From NCBI RefSeq assembly GCF_000377765.1, contig NZ_KB898662.1, positions 248,001-312,000 on the forward strand: a stretch of 64,000 bases of DNA. The letters are read 5' to 3'. Shown here piece by piece: positions 9,258 through 49,245 of the stretch (position 1 is the stretch's first letter; the number at the start of each line of letters is the position of its first letter). The notes beneath the pieces were generated by a model. It did not search any database and was not told the origin of the DNA. It saw only the letters and a list, made by a program, of their open reading frames with translations. Origin of the DNA: Gracilibacillus lacisalsi DSM 19029 (lineage in GTDB: Bacteria > Bacillota > Bacilli > Bacillales > Amphibacillaceae). Both the position numbers and the translations under genes were made by a program.

Positions 9258-9293
9258 GGTATCCATTAAAACTTGATTTCATTTCAACTGGAA

Positions 9294-10640
9294 TTATTCT
9301 CCTAATATACTTTTTGCCTCATTCATGAAATCTGTTACAGCCTGTTCTACCGACTTTTGCCCAAATGCAATTGCTTCGGCATTGTCGGCAAAAAGCGTTT
9401 CTACTTCATTTATACCTTCTGGAGCATAAGGTGCAGGTTCTGCTAATGCAACCGTATTTTGAATATGTTCCACTGCTCTTTGCTCAGGTGGTGTAAGTTC
9501 TTCCATAACTAAATTAGAAGCCTCTGTACCAGCTGGAGGACCTTGTTCTGTTTTGAATATTTTTACTGCTTCATCATTACTTACAAAAAACTCAATGAAT
9601 TTTGCTGCCGCATCTTTATGAGGAGAAGCTTCTGTAATACTGAGATAGGCACCTTCAATATATTCACCATTTGGGCCACCTTCAATATGAGCATGACGCA
9701 CAATATTAATTTCACCCTCACCCATTTGTTCTTCATATAAATACATTTGATTTGCTGGCAACCCTAGTAATGCTACTTTTTTCGTTGCAAACATATTTGC
9801 TTCTAATGGTAAGCCTTCATACTCGTTACTAGTAGCCGCATCAGGAATCACGCCATCCTGTCTCATTTGATCCCACATTGTCCACCAATCTGTTAATACT
9901 TGCTCATCAAACCCTAATTTTCCGTCTTCTGTAAAAACATCCTGGCCACTTTGACGTGCAAAATATCTAAATCTTGGTTGTAACTGTCCACCACTTCCAT
10001 CTTCAACAGCCCAACCATCTTCTCCGATTGCTTCCTTGATTTCATATGCTTTATCGACAAAGTCATCCCAAGTCCAATCATATTCAGGATAATCGACACC
10101 TAGATCATCAAAGACTGCTGTATTATATACATATCCCGGCATGGTAATACCTTTGGCTACCATGACAATGTCTTCTCCAACCTTTCCACTATCTAGAGCA
10201 GCCTCTGGGAAATCTGATAAATCTAGTTCACCGCTTTCCACCATATCATTCAAAACATGCAGCGCACCTCGTCGAGCATAGTCTGACACATAAAATTGAT
10301 GCATACTTACAACATCAGGAGCATTTCCACCTGACACCTGTGTCGTTAATCGATCCCAGTAATCCTCCCAGCCTCCAAATTGTCTATCCACTTTTATATT
10401 TGGATACTCTTCTTCAAATAAATCAATAATTTCATTATATTTATCATGACGTCCTGTATCTCCCCACCATGAAAAACTTATCTCGATTTGCTCATCTGAC
10501 TCATTTTCACTTGTGTTTCCTGAGTTATTGTCATTAGATTCACCTTCATTCGTTTCACCGGCATCTTCATTACTTGAGCAACCTACCAACAGCAAAAATG
10601 CTAACACAATTATCGATAACAACAATAAATTTCTCTTCAT
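9294..10640 (-). CDS. Sugar ABC importer solute-binding lipoprotein
   Basis: A 448-residue family-1 extracellular SBP. It has an N-terminal lipoprotein signal with lipobox LLVGCS (Cys about 21), then an acidic Asn/Ser/Glu-rich linker of about 30 residues, then the SBP fold (ISFSWWGDTGRHDKY, GGNAPDVVSMHQFY, a C-terminal EAKSIL helix). It is tethered outside the membrane and delivers sugar to the two permeases downstream. The ATG has an AAGGGGAG RBS. No terminator was found in the 255 bp separating it from the upstream catabolic cluster, so read-through is possible. Confidence 0.92.
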   Translation of the reverse strand: MKRNLLLLSIIVLAFLLLVGCSSNEDAGETNEGESNDNNSGNTSENESDEQIEISFSWWGDTGRHDKYNEIIDLFEEEYPNIKVDRQFGGWEDYWDRLTTQVSGGNAPDVVSMHQFYVSDYARRGALHVLNDMVESGELDLSDFPEAALDSGKVGEDIVMVAKGITMPGYVYNTAVFDDLGVDYPEYDWTWDDFVDKAYEIKEAIGEDGWAVEDGSGGQLQPRFRYFARQSGQDVFTEDGKLGFDEQVLTDWWTMWDQMRQDGVIPDAATSNEYEGLPLEANMFATKKVALLGLPANQMYLYEEQMGEGEINIVRHAHIEGGPNGEYIEGAYLSITEASPHKDAAAKFIEFFVSNDEAVKIFKTEQGPPAGTEASNLVMEELTPPEQRAVEHIQNTVALAEPAPYAPEGINEVETLFADNAEAIAFGQKSVEQAVTDFMNEAKSILGE

Positions 10641-10896
10641 TGTTTTATCTCCCCTTTTTCTTTAATCACCATTAACCAAACAACACTGATAAATGAGCAA
10701 TAATGGCAGGCTTTTCCGATCACCTCCTTCTTTCATAGCCTCGCTTAACATAAGCTAAATTTTTCTCACGGTCCGGATGGTCGCCTCTTCTGACATAGTA
10801 GAATCAAAGAAATAGAAGTGATGGCACGACGATAGTACCCTGATAAATTTTCTTGAGCCAAATGTAGTTAAAAACCTCGCTGATGAAAGTCTTACT

Positions 10897-11751
10897 TTAT
10901 CGAATAATGCTTTTACTAATTGCAGCAAAATCTAATTCACTATTTTCTTGCTGGGATGATTTGTACAACTGTAATGCCAAGGATGCTAAAGGTAATACGG
11001 AAGTTCTCCCTTCATCTACAGCTATCTGTACGTCTTTTTTCATTAAATTCAGCTTAAAACCAGGTTCAAATTGTTCGTTTACAATTGAATCCAGTTTATT
11101 CATCAACATCCACGAAGCTCCAGAACTATTACCAATTACTTCTTTCAACATGGCAGAATCAACTTCTAGTTCTTTTGCTAAACTAATAGCTTCGGAAGTG
11201 GCAATCATATGAATACCTGCAAGCATTTGATTGATAGCCTTGATCGCATTACCTGCACCAACTTCTCCAACTAAATACACGTTCTGCGCCATTGCATCTA
11301 TGACATCTTCTACTTCATTTAATGTCGCTGTTTCACCTCCGGCCATCACCGTTAGCGCACCATTTTCCGCACCAACTGTTCCACCACTAACAGGTGCATC
11401 TAACACTCGTATTCCGTGTTCTTGATAGACCGCATGAAGCTTTTTGATGGCATCAGGTGATCCAGAGGTCATTTCTATTAAAATAGCATTCTTTTGGAAT
11501 GAATCTATGACATCATCTGAAAGTAGTACATCATTCATTTCTTTATCTGTTGGCAGAATGGAAATAACCACTTCACTGTTTCGTAATACTCCTTCTACAC
11601 TGGAATGAACCTGTGCACCTTGACTTTCAAGAGTCCTTATAGGCTCCGGATTCCTATGTTGCGCAACATGTAGTTCAAACCCTTGTTTTAATACGTTCTG
11701 CGCCATCGGTAATCCCATAGCTCCTAATCCAACAAATCCTACTTTTTTCAT
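10897..11751 (-). CDS. NAD(P)-dependent 3-hydroxyacid dehydrogenase (HIBADH/GarR family)
   Basis: About 285 residues. The N-terminal Rossmann signature GFVGLGAMGLPMA is followed by the substrate-binding DAPVSGGTVGAENG segment (about 120) and the catalytic lysine region GNAIKAINQML (about 170). The family reduces tartronate semialdehyde or oxidises 3-hydroxyisobutyrate and similar beta-hydroxyacids. The start is at the second ATG of a tandem pair, 8 nt after GGAGG. It is the last gene of the RraA/dehydrogenase cluster, where it would suit reduction of tartronate semialdehyde or a related C3 semialdehyde; that step is inferred. Confidence 0.85.
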   Translation of the reverse strand: MKKVGFVGLGAMGLPMAQNVLKQGFELHVAQHRNPEPIRTLESQGAQVHSSVEGVLRNSEVVISILPTDKEMNDVLLSDDVIDSFQKNAILIEMTSGSPDAIKKLHAVYQEHGIRVLDAPVSGGTVGAENGALTVMAGGETATLNEVEDVIDAMAQNVYLVGEVGAGNAIKAINQMLAGIHMIATSEAISLAKELEVDSAMLKEVIGNSSGASWMLMNKLDSIVNEQFEPGFKLNLMKKDVQIAVDEGRTSVLPLASLALQLYKSSQQENSELDFAAISKSIIR

Positions 11752-12760: not shown

Positions 12761-13723
12761 TTAGATCACTCTATACATTGGGGGCTTATTCTGTAGTACT
12801 CTTAGAAGATTTTCCGCTGCGACTTCCTCCATTTTTAAACGTGTTGCAATACTTGCACTCCCTATATGTGGTAGAGTGATAACATTAGGTAACGAAACAA
12901 ATCGATTTGATTTGTCAATTGGCTCTTCTTCAAAAACGTCAAGACCGGCTGCCCATATTTGGTGATTAGTTAAAGCATGATAGAGAGCATCTTCGTTTAC
13001 AATTCCACCTCTTGACGTATTAACTAAAATGCAGGTATCTTTCATTAATTGAAATTGTCTTTCTGCAATTAGGTTTTTTGTTTCTTCACTGTACGGAACC
13101 ATCACACATATAAAATCTGAAGTTTTCAGTAATTCTTCAAATTCTACATATTGAACACCTAATTCTCTTTCAAGTTCCAGTGACCGATTACGATTATGGT
13201 AAAGGACGTTCATATTAAATCCTTTTGCACGTCTAGCTAATGCAGATCCAATTCGTCCCATCCCGATAATACCTAAGCTAGCTCCATGTATATCTCTTCC
13301 TGTTAATTGCATCGGTGACCAAGTTAACCATTTGTTGGTTGCTATATAATCAACCGCTTCGACAAGGCGACGTGCAGTTGCCATTAACAAAGCAAAGGTT
13401 AAATCAGCAGTCGTTTCAGTTAGTATTTCTGGCGTGTTGGTGACAATAATGTTATGTTTCTTAGCCTCTTCAATGTCTATATTGTTAAAACCAACAGCCA
13501 TATTACTAATCACTTTTAAATGGGGTGCTGAGGCTATTATTTCTTGATCGATTGTTTCCGTGAGTAAACAGTAAAGGCCATCTATCTTACTCACTTCGTC
13601 GATAAATACATCTCTTGGAACCGGGATCTCTTCTTGATCCCAGATCGAAATGTCACAATACTTATCTAACCTCTCTATGACACTGTCTTCGATTTTTCTT
13701 GTAATATAAATTTTCGGTTTCAT
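12761..13723 (-). CDS. D-isomer 2-hydroxyacid dehydrogenase (glyoxylate reductase-like)
   Basis: About 320 residues. The NAD-binding core is GIIGMGRIGSALARR (about 150), with the family arginine in NTSRGGIVNE (about 235), the acidic partner in GLDVFEEEP and the catalytic histidine in LPHIGSAS (about 290). It reduces glyoxylate, hydroxypyruvate or similar 2-oxoacids with NAD(P)H, or runs the reverse reaction. The start at 13723 is supported by GGAGAG eight bases upstream. It overlaps no gene but follows the ALDH closely, as part of a set that would handle C2/C3 fragments. Confidence 0.88.
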   Translation of the reverse strand: MKPKIYITRKIEDSVIERLDKYCDISIWDQEEIPVPRDVFIDEVSKIDGLYCLLTETIDQEIIASAPHLKVISNMAVGFNNIDIEEAKKHNIIVTNTPEILTETTADLTFALLMATARRLVEAVDYIATNKWLTWSPMQLTGRDIHGASLGIIGMGRIGSALARRAKGFNMNVLYHNRNRSLELERELGVQYVEFEELLKTSDFICVMVPYSEETKNLIAERQFQLMKDTCILVNTSRGGIVNEDALYHALTNHQIWAAGLDVFEEEPIDKSNRFVSLPNVITLPHIGSASIATRLKMEEVAAENLLRVLQNKPPMYRVI

Positions 13724-13748
13724 GTAAAGCTCTCCTATGGCCATATTC

Positions 13749-15221
13749 TTAATACTCAACGTACACAGTTTTTAATTCCGTGAAAAATTCTATATTAGAA
13801 CTCCCTATAGAGAAGGCACCAAACCCTGAACTTTTTGTACCTCCAAACGGTAAGTGTGCTGCACTTGCTGTTCCATGATTAATATGCACCATTCCTGATT
13901 CGATTTTTTCAGCACATTGATGTGCAACGGAAAGATCATTGGTGAATACAGATGCCGCCAACCCGTAATCCACATCATTTGCAACAGATAGTGCTTCTTC
14001 TACACTGTCTACCTCTGTAATGGTAAGGACAGGACCAAATATCTCCTCTTTTGCTATTCTCATGGAGGCTTTTACGTTATCTAACAACGCCGGCTTCATA
14101 TATGCACCTTTACTATATTGCTCATCCTCTAAAAGCTCGCCACCATAAATTAGATTCGCCCCTTCTTGAACACCAATTGCAATATAGTTTTGGACACTAT
14201 CCAAATGACCTTTATTAACTAATGGCCCCATATTAGCATTGTCGTCCCAGGCTGGACCGATTTTTATTTTTTCTAATTGATTGCTTAACGCTTTAACAAG
14301 CTCATCTTTTTTGTCCCTTAATACAATCACTCTACTGATCGACGTGCAACGTTGCCCACTACAAGTGCAAGCAGCACTGATAATTTGTTTGGCTACGTGA
14401 TTTTCGTTGGAATAGTCCAGTACAACAGCAGGGTTTTTACCACCTAATTCTAATTGTGTTTTTGCAAATTTCTTCGAAGCTAATTGATTAATTTGCTGCC
14501 CTAATTCCGTAGAACCAGTAAAACTAATCCCTTTCACATCTGGATGAGTAACTAGTGAATCGCCAACAGTTGATCCACTGCCAACAATTAGATTTACTAC
14601 ACCATCTGGAACACCTGCTTCCGTCAGTAACTCCATAATTCTAGCTGAAGTCCACGGAGTGGCTGTTGCAGGCTTATAAACGACTGTGCATCCATACGCT
14701 AATGCAGGTGCTATCTTTCTTATTGGTGTAATCATCGGAAAATTCCAAGGGGCAATCTCGGCGATAACACCAACAGGTTTTCTGACAGTGGAATTCCAGA
14801 CATTTTGCCTTTCTGCAGGTAGTGTTTTTCCTTCCATTCTAAATGCTTCTCCAGCGCAAAAACGTGTTTCCTTGGCAGCACGTAATACTTCACCCATCGA
14901 TTCATTTAATACTTTTCCTTGCTCTGCAGAAACAATAAAAGAGAGTTCTTGAAGGTTTTCTTCTAACATGTCTGCTACTTTATATAAAATAGCACCTCGT
15001 TCCGGTCCTGGTAATACAGACCATGTTTCAAATGCATCATTTGCCGCTGATACAGCTTGATTAACGTCTTCTGGAGTTGATTTAGGAAAATGGGCTAAAG
15101 GCTGCTTATTATTGGCAGCATTATATATGGTATAGGTTTCGCCACTTACACTGTTTATCCAATTGCCATTAATATAGTTTCCGTAAGCTTTAGCTTGGTG
15201 ATTTTCGAGAAAATGTAACAT
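13749..15221 (-). CDS. NAD(P)-dependent aldehyde dehydrogenase
   Basis: About 490 residues of the ALDH superfamily. It shows the oxyanion/cofactor motif APWNFPM (about 155), the catalytic glutamate in LELGGKNP (about 255), the nucleophilic cysteine in CSGQRCTS (about 290) and the KEEIFGPVL motif (about 385). It resembles succinate-, glycolaldehyde- or 2-oxoglutarate-semialdehyde dehydrogenases. The start is taken at 15221 (GGAG five bases upstream); ATG 15239 or GTG 15251 would add 6 to 10 residues and overlap the ADH gene. It probably oxidises an aldehyde released by the RraA-type aldolases. Confidence 0.9.
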   Translation of the reverse strand: MLHFLENHQAKAYGNYINGNWINSVSGETYTIYNAANNKQPLAHFPKSTPEDVNQAVSAANDAFETWSVLPGPERGAILYKVADMLEENLQELSFIVSAEQGKVLNESMGEVLRAAKETRFCAGEAFRMEGKTLPAERQNVWNSTVRKPVGVIAEIAPWNFPMITPIRKIAPALAYGCTVVYKPATATPWTSARIMELLTEAGVPDGVVNLIVGSGSTVGDSLVTHPDVKGISFTGSTELGQQINQLASKKFAKTQLELGGKNPAVVLDYSNENHVAKQIISAACTCSGQRCTSISRVIVLRDKKDELVKALSNQLEKIKIGPAWDDNANMGPLVNKGHLDSVQNYIAIGVQEGANLIYGGELLEDEQYSKGAYMKPALLDNVKASMRIAKEEIFGPVLTITEVDSVEEALSVANDVDYGLAASVFTNDLSVAHQCAEKIESGMVHINHGTASAAHLPFGGTKSSGFGAFSIGSSNIEFFTELKTVYVEY

Positions 15222-41436: not shown

Positions 41437-42264
41437 CTAAAATGGATTATAAAACCGAGTCCCATCATGAAAGGTAATCACCATAGCTGCGATAAAAAGC
41501 ACCAGACTAATCATTAAGGTAAACACATCTGCCTTTAATAGCGGTCGGGCGCTATACCAGGTACGTTGTTTATGTTTCCCAAAGCTGCGTAACTCCATGG
41601 CATTACTGATTACTTCAATCCGGTCGAGACTGGAAAAAATTAATGGCACCATAATGGAAATGACGTTTTTTAGACGTTTTGTTAGTTTTTCATTTTTGGA
41701 CAAATCAATTCCTCTCGTCTGCTGGACTTGAGCGATAGTACGAAAATCACGTTGGATATCTGGTATATAACGCAATGCCAACGATACTGCAATGCCTATT
41801 TTATAACTAATACCAACTTTATTAAGAGATGCTGCAAATTCACTAGGGTGCGTGGTCAGAATAAACAATAAGGCAGCTGGGATCACGACAAAATATTTCA
41901 ATGTAATATTCATTTGGTAGAATAATTGCTCCCATGTCAGATTATATCTGCCTATCCCATCCCAAATCACATGACTACTGCCATAGATTTGAACACCTTC
42001 TTGGGGCGAAAATAGATAAATCGCCACATTATTAAGAGCGAGAAACGCTAGAATAATGATCAGTACAAAGGATATGTCTTTTAGTTGAATCTTCGATAGC
42101 TGGAAGATAACAAGACTTGCAATCAATAACACAAGCAATACCCTAGTATCATAAGTTAGCATAGCAACAGAAGACCAAATTAAAAAAACGATCAGCTTAG
42201 TAATTCCTGATAACTTGTGTATTGGTGATGTTCGTTCCATATAACCCAATATATTTACTGCCAT
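41437..42264 (-). CDS. ECF transporter transmembrane component EcfT
   Basis: 275 residues: an N-terminal helix group, then the two cytoplasmic coupling helices with the Ala-Arg-Gly-type signatures, here VQQTRGIDL (about 178-186) and SNAMELRSFGKH (about 222-233, A-M-E-L-R-S-F-G). It anchors the S component to the ATPases. Its start overlaps the EcfA stop by 10 bp, indicating coupled synthesis. It is the last gene of the T-box-controlled operon. Confidence 0.9.
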   Translation of the reverse strand: MAVNILGYMERTSPIHKLSGITKLIVFLIWSSVAMLTYDTRVLLVLLIASLVIFQLSKIQLKDISFVLIIILAFLALNNVAIYLFSPQEGVQIYGSSHVIWDGIGRYNLTWEQLFYQMNITLKYFVVIPAALLFILTTHPSEFAASLNKVGISYKIGIAVSLALRYIPDIQRDFRTIAQVQQTRGIDLSKNEKLTKRLKNVISIMVPLIFSSLDRIEVISNAMELRSFGKHKQRTWYSARPLLKADVFTLMISLVLFIAAMVITFHDGTRFYNPF

Positions 42265-44643: not shown

Positions 44644-45501
44644 TTAACTATACACAATTTTAGGTGCTTTGCGTATAAAAATTTTCCACTTTTCGCCTGT
44701 CTTAATATGATATGCCTTAGCAAAAGATCCTTGATTTAAAGCCACACCAATATTCTCTAAGGAATTAATATATAGCAATGGCTCGCCAACCTGTGTATCT
44801 GCAAATGACTTACCGTAGGACATCACGTTTTTATATACTTGTCGTGTATCATCTAAAATCGTTACTTCTAATGTATCTCCATAGTCAATGGAAGCTTCCT
44901 GAAAGTAGCGTTTATGAATATTGGTCCAGAGATTACCAAAACGGATATCTAATATATCAATCGTCCCCTTAATAATCCCTCCATCTACTATCACACTTGG
45001 CGTTGAAAGTTTTACCAGCTGATCTACGTCAATTTTCTGCCCAACTTCTTCAAACGTGATAACTCCAGCAGCAAGCCTAGCTCCTGTGTAGGCATAAACA
45101 TCTCTTCCATGAAACGTATAAGATTCATAGGACCTTGCCAGCCTGTTTAGCTTTTCATCAATTACTCTAGCTTCTTCAATACCAACAGAATTCTCAATAT
45201 GGGTAATCGTTCCGTTATCTGGTGTAACGATAAAACGATTATCTTTCGTTTTCACTACGATACTTAATCGATCAGAGCCTACCCCTGGATCAACAACAGA
45301 TACAAAAACAGAACCTTCTGGCCAATAACAAATCGTCTGGTACAACCGGTAAGATGCCTCCCAAATATTATATTGTGGTATATCGTGGGTAACATCATAT
45401 AAATCTAGGGCATGATCGACTGTTTTTGCCACTCCATACATGGCACTTACTGCACCATCACTTGTACCAAAATCTGATTGAAAAACTAAATGCTTTGTCA
45501 T
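44644..45501 (-). CDS. S-adenosyl-L-methionine hydrolase (DUF62/SAM hydroxide adenosyltransferase)
   Basis: About 285 residues of the DUF62/fluorinase-chlorinase family. The catalytic Asp-Arg-His set is recognisable: VVDPGVGSDR (Asp about 68, Arg about 74) and the His in TFHGRDVYA (about 126), with DFGTSDGAVSAMYG at the N-terminus. Family members lacking halogenase features convert SAM plus water to adenosine plus methionine. The start is ATG 45501 with AAGGAGG; upstream in-frame codons lie near the terminator arm. It is the first gene behind a Met-type T-box, which implies that it supplies methionine during starvation. Confidence 0.88.
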   Translation of the reverse strand: MTKHLVFQSDFGTSDGAVSAMYGVAKTVDHALDLYDVTHDIPQYNIWEASYRLYQTICYWPEGSVFVSVVDPGVGSDRLSIVVKTKDNRFIVTPDNGTITHIENSVGIEEARVIDEKLNRLARSYESYTFHGRDVYAYTGARLAAGVITFEEVGQKIDVDQLVKLSTPSVIVDGGIIKGTIDILDIRFGNLWTNIHKRYFQEASIDYGDTLEVTILDDTRQVYKNVMSYGKSFADTQVGEPLLYINSLENIGVALNQGSFAKAYHIKTGEKWKIFIRKAPKIVYS

Positions 45502-45563
45502 ATTATTCCTCCTTGAAAATGTTTGATTGGTGAAAGCCTTCCTGATGATCCGGAGCATTAAAA

Positions 45564-45887
45564 AACGCCCCTATTGTTCAATGAACAATAAGGGCGTTGA
45601 TATTATTTTCAACACGGTACCACCTTAGTTTACTGCATACTCACATATACAGTCTTTACAAGTACTCCACCAAAACAGGCTTTCATACTTTGGTATAGAT
45701 AACGAGTACCAAATCTCGTCGTCACTTACTTGTGTCATAAATAGACACGTTCAGCACGAAGCTCGAAGGCCATTTTCAGCATCTGCATTTTTGCTTCTTT
45801 TCAGCTACCGAAGCTCTCTGTCGAAAAACGCTCGAAACTTACTTTCCCTTTTCATCGCTTTTTAACTATTGATTTACTCAATCTTTA
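45564..45887 (-). ncRNA. T-box riboswitch leader, predicted tRNA-Met specific
   Basis: The minus-strand leader contains the AGTAA motif, AGAGAGCTTCGGTAGCTG (stem I distal part), the conserved T-box AAGGTGGTACCGTG (complement of 45613-45626) and a terminator (45564-45598) with a 17-bp stem followed by TTTTTT. The specifier bulge reads GAAA-ATG-GCCTTCGAG, placing AUG at 45773-45771. The discriminator-pairing TGGT fits the A73 of tRNA-Met. Uncharged tRNA-Met should favour the antiterminator and turn on the SAM hydrolase/ECF operon. Specifier assignment is by alignment by eye, so it is likely but not certain. Confidence 0.88.
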
Positions 45888-46248: not shown

Positions 46249-47247
46249 ATGAAGAAAAAATTGCTTAAGTGGTTGTCTTTCAGTCTTTTCGTTACTCTAT
46301 TATTCGGTTTGTCGTTCCAATCTGTCTCTGCAAGTAATCCTGATTTCAGTATGACCGGTTTTGCCACGCAAAATGGCGGTACAACTGGTGGCGCAGGTGG
46401 AGATACCGTAACTGTTCATACAGGAGACGAACTTGTTCAAGCGTTAAAGGACAAAGAAGATCATACACCTTTAACCATTTATGTCAATGGAACCATTACA
46501 CCAGACAATACGCCTGACAGCAAAATTAACATTAAGGATGTATCAGATGTTTCCTTATTAGGTGTTGGTACTAATGGGGAATTAGACGGCATAGGCATTA
46601 AAGTGTGGCGAGCAGATAATGTTATAATCCGTAATCTCACGATTCATGAAGTACGTACCGGTGACAAGGATGCCATTAGCATTGAAGGACCATCAAACAA
46701 CATTTGGGTGGATCATAATGAACTTTATGCTAGCCTAAATGTGGACAAAGACTACTATGATGGTTTATTTGATGTGAAACGGGATGCATTTAATATTACT
46801 TTCTCATGGAACTATGTCCATGATGGCTGGAAAGCGATGTTAATGGGGTCATCAGATAGTGACAGCGACGATCGAAACATTACGTTCCACCATAATCATT
46901 TTCAAAACTTGAATTCGCGAGTCCCTAGCTACCGTCATGGCGAAGGTCACTTGTATAATAATTACTTTGAAGGAATTATCGATACAGGGATTAATGCCAG
47001 AATGGGAGCTGAACTACTTATAGAAAATAACGTATTTGAGAATTCCAAGGATCCACTTGGCGCTTGGTATAGTAGTTCTCCAGGGTACTGGAACGTTTCC
47101 AACAACTTATACATCAACAGCACTGGCAGTCAACCAACGACATCCACAACCAACTATACCGTTCCATATAACTATACACTTACACCAGTTGAAGATGTAA
47201 AATCACTCGTTACACAATATGCTGGTGTTGGAGTAATTCAACCGTAA
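46249..47247 (+). CDS. Secreted pectate lyase (PL1 family)
   Basis: 332 residues. A signal peptide ([19 protein letters not shown]...SVSAS, cleavage near 29) is followed by a PL1 parallel beta-helix. [16 protein letters not shown] (about 142-157) carries Ca-binding/active-site acids, [19 protein letters not shown] follows, and the catalytic Arg is in [13 protein letters not shown] (about 222-234). It cleaves polygalacturonate by beta-elimination outside the cell. With the downstream orphan LplA-type SBP it suggests pectin use. It is probably CcpA-repressed. Confidence 0.92.
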
Positions 47248-47736: not shown

Positions 47737-49245
47737 ATGGAAAAAAATAAAATTCGGCTGGCTTTTCTCCTGTTTGTATCATTAGCTCTGTTTCTATTTG
47801 CTTGTTCCAAAAATGAAAGCGCTTCAAATAATGAGGATAATGATGATGGTCCACAAGAAATTTCCATGATGTTTAACTTGCATGTTCCAGAAGTACCTGA
47901 CAGTCGCCTCGAAGAATTATTAGAAGAAGCTACCAACACAGAATTAGATATTCGCTGGGTACCTGACAATAACTATGCAGAAACATTGAATTCACAAATC
48001 GCAACCGGTAATCTCCCTGATGTATTTCTACTAAAAGACGTGACATTGGATCAACAAAAAGAAGCAGTGCGTGACGGACAATACTGGGAGATAGGCCCCT
48101 ACCTTGAAGAGTTTCCTAACTTGAACAAACTAAATGAAGATATTCTAAAAAATACAATGATCGATGGTAAGCTATATACCCTTTACGCAGGCCGACCTCT
48201 ATCTCGCCAAGGACTTATTTATCGAAAAGATTGGGCTGAGAACCTAGGACTTGATACACCAACCAACCTTGATGAATTATACGAAATGATGAAAGCATTC
48301 ACTGAAGATGACCCTGATGGAAATGGCCAGGATGACACGATTGGTTTAACAGACCGAGAAATCCTAGGAACATTTGAAAACTTTGCGACATGGCACGGAG
48401 CACCTAATAGATGGGGAGAAAAAGATGGGCAGCTTTTACCACAATTTATGTTTCCTGAATACCGGGAAGCAATGGATTATTTCAAAAGCTTGTTTGATAA
48501 TGGCTACATCAACAAAGATGCTCCTGTAACAAGTAAAACAGACCAACAAGAGATGCTAAAGAATGGTACTGCTGGCGTTTATATTGGTACGATGGGTGAT
48601 GTGGAACCAATGTATCGTGATGCAGTTGCCATTAATCCTGATGTAGAATTGGATGTCCACAATTACATTGAAGGTCCTGACGGGGAATATCGAACGCGTG
48701 CCATCCCAGGCTATGGAAGCATGCTTATTTTTCCGAAACAATCTGTTGAAACAGAAGAAGAACTGAAAGGAATTCTTGGATTTTTCGATTATTTAATGAC
48801 TCCAGAAGGCTCTAACTTACTTTACTGGGGTATTGAAGGAGAACATTATGAAGTGATTGATGGTTTTGCTAAGGTTCTCGATGAAAGTGAAGACAAGTAC
48901 AATCAAGAAATCCGCCCGTACACACCATTTGAAATTGGTGAACCAGAAACAAACGGCCGTTATACGGGATACTATGACTATGAACCACGTGCAAAAGCAG
49001 ATGAATTATATGAAGATAACAATAATTACTTGGTTCACGACCCAACAGCAGCATTAGAATCACCAACATGGGCTGATAAATCTGAAACACTCAATCAAAT
49101 TATGGAAGATGCTACCTACCAATACTTCCTAGGTCAAATTGATGAAGCAGGATTCGATGAAGCCATTGAGAAATGGAAAAATGCAGGCGGCGCCCAAGTA
49201 ATCGAAGAATATACTGAAGACTACAACAAGCAAAACAGCGAATAA
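47737..49245 (+). CDS. Orphan LplA-type ABC solute-binding lipoprotein
   Basis: 502 residues. Lipobox FLFAC (Cys about 23), an Asn/Asp/Glu-rich linker, then a large SBP of the LplA/YtcQ class (ATGNLPDVFLLKD near 88, YRKDWAENLGLDTPTNLDELY near 160, AIPGYGSMLIFPKQ near 310). This class usually binds oligosaccharides such as oligogalacturonides and works with LplB/LplC-like permeases, but no permease or ATPase follows: a strong terminator is 10 bp downstream. It must use permeases encoded elsewhere, perhaps those of a pectin operon. Confidence 0.88.
   Translation: MEKNKIRLAFLLFVSLALFLFACSKNESASNNEDNDDGPQEISMMFNLHVPEVPDSRLEELLEEATNTELDIRWVPDNNYAETLNSQIATGNLPDVFLLKDVTLDQQKEAVRDGQYWEIGPYLEEFPNLNKLNEDILKNTMIDGKLYTLYAGRPLSRQGLIYRKDWAENLGLDTPTNLDELYEMMKAFTEDDPDGNGQDDTIGLTDREILGTFENFATWHGAPNRWGEKDGQLLPQFMFPEYREAMDYFKSLFDNGYINKDAPVTSKTDQQEMLKNGTAGVYIGTMGDVEPMYRDAVAINPDVELDVHNYIEGPDGEYRTRAIPGYGSMLIFPKQSVETEEELKGILGFFDYLMTPEGSNLLYWGIEGEHYEVIDGFAKVLDESEDKYNQEIRPYTPFEIGEPETNGRYTGYYDYEPRAKADELYEDNNNYLVHDPTAALESPTWADKSETLNQIMEDATYQYFLGQIDEAGFDEAIEKWKNAGGAQVIEEYTEDYNKQNSE

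Follow-up and report, generated by a model that had tools for sequence, protein, structure and literature searches.

Why should an RNA that senses tRNA-Met stand in front of an enzyme predicted to destroy SAM, and why should both be followed by an importer of the energy-coupling factor (ECF) type? The question is raised by a minus-strand operon (45864-41437) of Gracilibacillus lacisalsi, which comprises a T-box leader, a SAM hydrolase gene and the genes for the S component, the fused A-A ATPase and the T component of an ECF transporter (Table 1). The operon lies in the window, i.e. the 64-kb stretch of DNA that was analysed as a whole. A first reading of the letters alone had confined the unit to 44644-45887; this span covers the leader and the hydrolase, but it misses the end of the operon at 41437. 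We propose here that the operon responds to methionine starvation, such that a shortage induces the release of methionine from SAM, with the importer most probably supplying the SAM, and we would give this reading an even chance. Beside the operon, on the plus strand, a pectate-lyase-like secreted protein (46249-47247) and a sugar-type solute-binding lipoprotein (47737-49245) are encoded, as judged by eye, and no link of either to the operon was seen.

Table 1. Features of the operon (positions in the window).
Feature	Position	Strand	Basis
T-box leader (tRNA-sensing RNA)	45587..45864	-	RF00230, 107 bits, E 1.2e-22
AUG codon of the specifier loop, as read from the alignment	45771..45773	-	sequence; ATG+G kept in relatives
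UGGU of the T-box bulge, predicted to pair with the ACCA end of tRNA-Met	45619..45622	-	sequence; host tRNA ends
Intrinsic terminator hairpin and U run	45560..45599	-	fold of 45552-45650, z -5.1
SAM hydrolase (DUF62, SAM hydroxide adenosyltransferase), 285 aa; probable start	44644..45501	-	SAM_HAT domains, triad pattern
ECF transporter S component (PF07155), 184 aa	43990..44544	-	profile match, AlphaFold2 model
Fused duplicated ECF ATPase (A-A), 571 aa	42255..43970	-	two ABC_tran domains and DUF3744
ECF T component (CbiQ family), 275 aa	41437..42264	-	PF02361, 4.6e-26

The leader and methionine control in the host

Apart from the T-box, nothing in the 64-kb window reaches an Rfam gathering score. 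The covariance model aligns with the leader over its full length (model positions 1-219) and exceeds its gathering score of 93, and hence the canonical T-box that the sequence-only reading had recognized is borne out. At the specifier place the leader reads GCUGAAAAUGGCC, and by the 5' anchor alone both an AAU and an AUG register are readable. The alignment of 58 relatives decides between the two: ATG followed by G occupies identical columns in all 59 rows (the window and the 58 relatives), whereas the AAU register has become GAU in five of the rows (L037, L064, L065, L068 and L075). Four further relatives that the letter pattern had overlooked also have ATG and G, so that every genome-contig relative with a detected T-box (62 in total), like the window itself, carries this motif. 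The specifier codon, as read from this alignment, is AUG (Met). The end of the tRNA leads to the same choice. All three host CAU tRNA genes that were read end in A, one of them without an encoded CCA, while the discriminator of the host tRNA-Asn gene that was read is G; therefore UGGU suits tRNA-Met and not tRNA-Asn. An Asn specifier is rejected on both grounds, and the Met specifier as well as the fit of UGGU to tRNA-Met, which had both been claimed from the letters, hold. UGGU is found in 56 of the 59 aligned leaders. Three leaders of Paucisalibacillus with a Met specifier (L030, L048, L091) have UGGA instead, for which U73 on the tRNA would be needed.

The terminator that had likewise been claimed is a 15-bp hairpin followed by a U run, and the 99-nt stretch that contains it is more stable than all of its shuffled versions (z = -5.1; 0 of 200 shuffles equally stable), which upholds the claim. 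Terminator and antiterminator, the latter placed from the Rfam alignment, are mutually exclusive.

Methionine metabolism of the host is otherwise marked by SAM riboswitches, with 13 matches in the genome. Behind them lie genes for a homocysteine S-methyltransferase/MTHFR, a MetN-type ATPase (a match below the model's own cut-off), two O-acetylhomoserine sulfhydrylases, CysH, a methionine-biosynthesis PLP enzyme and methionine synthase, and further an FMN-dependent dehydrogenase, a thiolase and a phosphate-transporter-like protein. Since methionine synthesis and the MetN-type ATPase are encoded under SAM riboswitches, the host is not an evident methionine auxotroph. Among the candidates scored, the host has 18 T-box matches, 17 of them over the Rfam score, and among those with an assigned specifier the window leader is the one that reads Met. 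The T-boxes at L002, L003 and L016 contain similar letter runs, but these are away from the specifier place, where TGG, CTC and CCT are found.

The hydrolase and the importer

Translation of the hydrolase probably starts at 45501, behind an AGGAGG ribosome site, and reads MTKHLVF; compared with this start, the first in-frame ATG (45558), immediately beyond the terminator, is disfavoured. Both Pfam domains of the family are present (SAM_HAT_N, 1e-47; SAM_HAT_C, 4.5e-23), and the best relatives of solved structure are DUF62-type proteins and the fluorinase/chlorinase group. The residues D71, R78 and H131 are invariant in the eight aligned proteins, and by their spacing and the numbering of PH0463, which we take to carry over, they fit the DUF62 triad. 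Such a His-Arg-Asp triad is described as separating DUF62 hydrolases from halogenases (PMC10491745), and on this pattern a halogenase is rejected. Domains and triad pattern together confirm the DUF62 SAM hydrolase that had been named downstream of the T-box. Judged from its family and the conserved triad, the enzyme would hydrolyse SAM to yield methionine plus adenosine. The (R)-SAM hydrolase equivalogs of NCBIfam match below their curated cut-offs (138.7 bits versus 350 and 108.6 versus 470). The PF01887 model also matches in the Escherichia coli control genome. A report on StDUF62 describes the physiological role of DUF62 proteins as unsettled, and this enzyme prefers (R,S)-SAM and is strongly inhibited by salt (PMC12120602). 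An enzyme with these properties need not suit a bulk supply of methionine, which is a point against our main reading.

The S, A-A and T parts that the sequence-only reading had assigned to one ECF transporter form a complete set by their Pfam domains, with an ATPase that carries two fused ABC domains plus DUF3744 and a T component of the CbiQ type. The S component matches PF07155 (2.1e-52; 178 bits versus a cut-off of 26.7) and NF010182 (255.8 bits versus 99), and Pfam and NCBIfam both name it a riboflavin carrier. Support for this name was not seen in the genomic context. Rfam scans of the window and of 24 S-bearing loci (L193 included) gave no FMN riboswitch, and this absence speaks weakly against riboflavin import. 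An AlphaFold2 model of the S component from a 50-sequence alignment reached a pLDDT of 90. The nearest folds are those of the S components ThiT (Z 18.1), FolT (Z 16.4) and RibU (Z 16.2), which resemble the model in fold but share 15-18% identity with it in these alignments, and among PDB structures no sequence relative was found at E 1. Three residues (78, 121 and 124) differ between hydrolase-linked and unlinked S components, and these differences seem to track phylogeny and not linkage. The host has a second, distant PF07155 match (L226, contig C28, 10578-11039, 33.4 bits).

Distribution of leader, hydrolase and importer

A census of 146 genomes of the host's family gave 87 hydrolase genes in 84 genomes, with G144 (a fragment, E 3.4e-4) and second fragments in G140 and G143 left out. 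A Met T-box precedes 57 of the 87 genes, where 51 were recognized by letter pattern and six by Rfam, and ATG is the specifier in all 57. The 51 rest on the pattern and the specifier motif, nearly all without an Rfam-model score, and hydrolases counted as T-box-less may carry one below the Rfam score. Of the 87 hydrolases, 24 are followed by ECF genes, and every one of these 24 has the T-box. The 63 hydrolases without ECF genes divide into 33 with a T-box and 30 at which none was detected; both groups, the latter including the second copy of the host, count against our main reading. Orthologs of the S component (66-100% identity) occur in 25 genomes; in 24 of these a hydrolase gene lies 18-646 nt upstream, while the 25th S gene is at a contig end. 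Because 24 of 25 S components adjoin a hydrolase and 63 of 87 hydrolases lack ECF genes, S practically implies the hydrolase in the host's family, but the hydrolase does not imply S.

The same asymmetry can be followed on a hydrolase tree of 86 rows (a quick tree with SH-aLRT support only, in which the broken G143 was left out). On it the T-box label requires eight changes, compared with 14 for the ECF label; the ECF changes always fall on T-box-bearing genes, and well-supported branches force at least eight of them. Given the T-box at 24 of 24 ECF-linked and at 33 of 63 ECF-less hydrolases, the conserved core is, to judge from gene order and tree, the Met T-box together with the SAM hydrolase, and the importer is an accessory that was gained or lost many times. 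The pairing of importer and hydrolase suggested by the sequence-only reading is thus a real coupling (24 of 24 and 24 of 25), but the 33 ECF-less hydrolases behind a T-box speak against the importer as a required partner. At high identity, no substitute S was found in the genomes with a solitary T-box hydrolase; eight matches at 22-28% identity (E > 1e-5) were excluded. Nor did a shared partner emerge from ten proteins downstream of solitary hydrolases that were scanned with Pfam. The proteins found there are NUDIX, alpha/beta hydrolase, GntR with a Cys/Met enzyme, peptidase, histidine kinase (in three), aldo/keto reductase and ABC-2 permease. The second SAM hydrolase of the host (L127, contig C1, around 13472-13921) is solitary, without ECF neighbours or a detected T-box, and falls in a clade mostly confined to its genus.

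The genome-contig set consists of the best 80 of 325 S relatives, is biased to close relatives and overlaps the family set in some genomes (e.g. L019 and G109). A hydrolase lies 6-285 nt upstream of S in 67 of these 80 and is missing in 12, and one locus is cut by its contig (L020, at a contig edge, belongs to neither linkage class). A T-box was found at 62 of the 67 hydrolase-linked loci. The other five, L036 and four Clostridium operons of hydrolase and S (L084, L085, L087, L090), have neither a T-box nor a SAM riboswitch, which also counts against the main reading. Upstream of about 5110 in the four Clostridium loci there is no Rfam leader at gathering score. An inverted repeat resembling ATTCG...CGAAT was seen by eye near the promoter in at least two of them, and hence these operons may be under a DNA-binding regulator.

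In the assemblies of the 12 S-A-A-T operons that are not linked to a hydrolase, a PF01887 gene was found in none (0 of 12; completeness of the assemblies unstated), so that the substrate of these importers would be either useful without the hydrolase or a different one, a further point against the main reading. In one of the 12, L098, S is immediately preceded by a SAM riboswitch. Before S of the other 11 Rfam gave no methionine-type leader, and a T-box at Rfam score precedes S in none of the 12. No common partner was noticed near these operons, in the maps of all 12 and the proteins of eight inspected by eye. At L038, an adenine-deaminase-like gene (by eye; 9263-11188, minus strand) with a purine riboswitch lies on the strand opposite to the S-A-A-T operon.

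Proposed function and comparison with known systems

How might such an operon work? In methionine-starved cells uncharged tRNA-Met would accumulate, bind the leader and stabilise the antiterminator, and in this way termination would be prevented. The hydrolase would then cut SAM to methionine and adenosine, as expected from family function and triad. Extracellular SAM, including the spontaneously formed (R,S) epimer, is most likely what the importer brings in. SAM as substrate is suggested by the exclusive coupling to the hydrolase in the family and by the SAM riboswitch on the hydrolase-free L098. We regard the regulatory finding as sound and infer SAM as the substrate of the importer. Hydrolysis of imported, partly epimerised SAM would give stereochemically neutral methionine, and plain methionine from such a mixture fits the (R,S) preference reported for StDUF62 (PMC12120602). 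Without import, hydrolysis of cell-made SAM would bring no net methionine, but it could move methionine out of the SAM pool and into protein synthesis while SAM riboswitches keep methionine synthesis off. A role of this kind would account for the 33 hydrolases that have a T-box but no ECF genes. SAM riboswitches shut off at high SAM, whereas a T-box can respond to low methionine at any SAM level, and the T-box logic would therefore complement the SAM riboswitches on the methionine synthesis and uptake genes of the host. Whether the operon serves the nutritional scavenging of SAM, with a dedicated ECF SAM importer that feeds the hydrolase under Met T-box control, is a narrower proposal; we hold it tentatively, at slightly less than an even chance.

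The importer could also carry another methionine-related compound, such as a methionine precursor, methylthioribose, MTA or S-methylmethionine, and share the signal with the hydrolase. S-A-A-T operons in 12 assemblies in which no DUF62 gene was found are in line with this idea, the SAM riboswitch at L098 would be expected for any sulfur-salvage importer, and the SEED label says only 'methionine-regulated ECF transporter' (PMC9423846). However, S adjoins the hydrolase in 24 of 25 family cases, and no gene for methylthioribose or MTA was noticed in the neighbours sampled by eye or in the ten Pfam scans. We also know of no action of DUF62 on methylthioribose, MTA, S-methylmethionine or methionine precursors, and consider this alternative rather unlikely. 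Less probable still is that the hydrolase alone matters and that the ECF transporter has an unrelated job. At high SAM and low methionine, cell-made SAM would then be returned to methionine because SAM riboswitches keep methionine synthesis off in this state. The 33 of 63 ECF-less hydrolases under the same Met T-box favour such a role, and so do the 13 SAM riboswitch matches of the host, several of them before methionine synthesis genes; it is at odds with the repeated and exclusive coupling of ECF genes to T-box hydrolases on the tree. Highly improbable, finally, is a housekeeping pair in which the hydrolase clears inactive (R,S)-SAM, the importer carries riboflavin and the shared leader is incidental: NCBIfam names the proteins in this way (the hydrolase models matching below their cut-offs) and StDUF62 prefers (R,S)-SAM (PMC12120602), but a Met T-box stands on 57 of 87 hydrolase genes, the window and the 24 S-bearing loci scanned contain no FMN riboswitch, and the S component, without a PDB sequence relative at E 1, is as close in fold to ThiT and FolT as to RibU.

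We thus favour a methionine-starvation operon, and the presence of a Met T-box before 57 of the 87 hydrolase genes examined in the family points to methionine supply as the purpose of DUF62. This control makes the unsettled role of the enzyme directly testable in culturable Bacillaceae. If SAM is indeed scavenged, the main role of DUF62 in Bacillaceae would be methionine release and not epimer clean-up, and an importer that carries SAM would be, to our knowledge, the first ECF system for this cofactor. A T-box beside SAM riboswitches would, if our reading is true, cover the combination of high SAM and low methionine, a state that the riboswitches cannot sense. Many relatives of the host share this arrangement, which hints at a function for a widespread enzyme of uncertain purpose.

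Among the matches listed in the literature searched there was nothing on this operon, and SAM hydrolase was not found there together with ECF transporter, energy-coupling factor or T-box; an earlier prediction may be contained in Rodionov 2004 or 2009, which reportedly deal with methionine regulons and ECF transporters. The label 'methionine-regulated ECF transporter' originates from SEED, and MtsB of the MtsABC system that bears it is a duplicated ATPase. Like the present importer, MtsABC is predicted to be an ECF importer linked with control by methionine (PMC9423846, with the MtsA label in Streptococcus suis; the system label also appears in PMC5408102). The likeness is one of label, and neither a SAM hydrolase nor a substrate was seen attached to the name. 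With StDUF62 and PH0463 the window hydrolase shares the two SAM_HAT domains and the pattern of the His-Arg-Asp triad. However, published DUF62 members are discussed for the removal of (R,S)-SAM (PMC12120602), while the window gene would be under methionine-starvation control and its relatives often stand beside an importer. In Listeria, lmo2587 was listed in 2008 with a Met T-box as 'Met related cytosolic hypothetical' (PMC2494555, Table 2), and this cytosolic protein can be likened to the hydrolase by its description. Met T-boxes with an ATG specifier are also described on methionine genes of Lactobacillus, where they precede genes for synthesis and ABC import (PMC6004538). The window T-box, in contrast, precedes a predicted SAM-degrading enzyme and an ECF importer, and its host genome has 13 SAM riboswitch matches.
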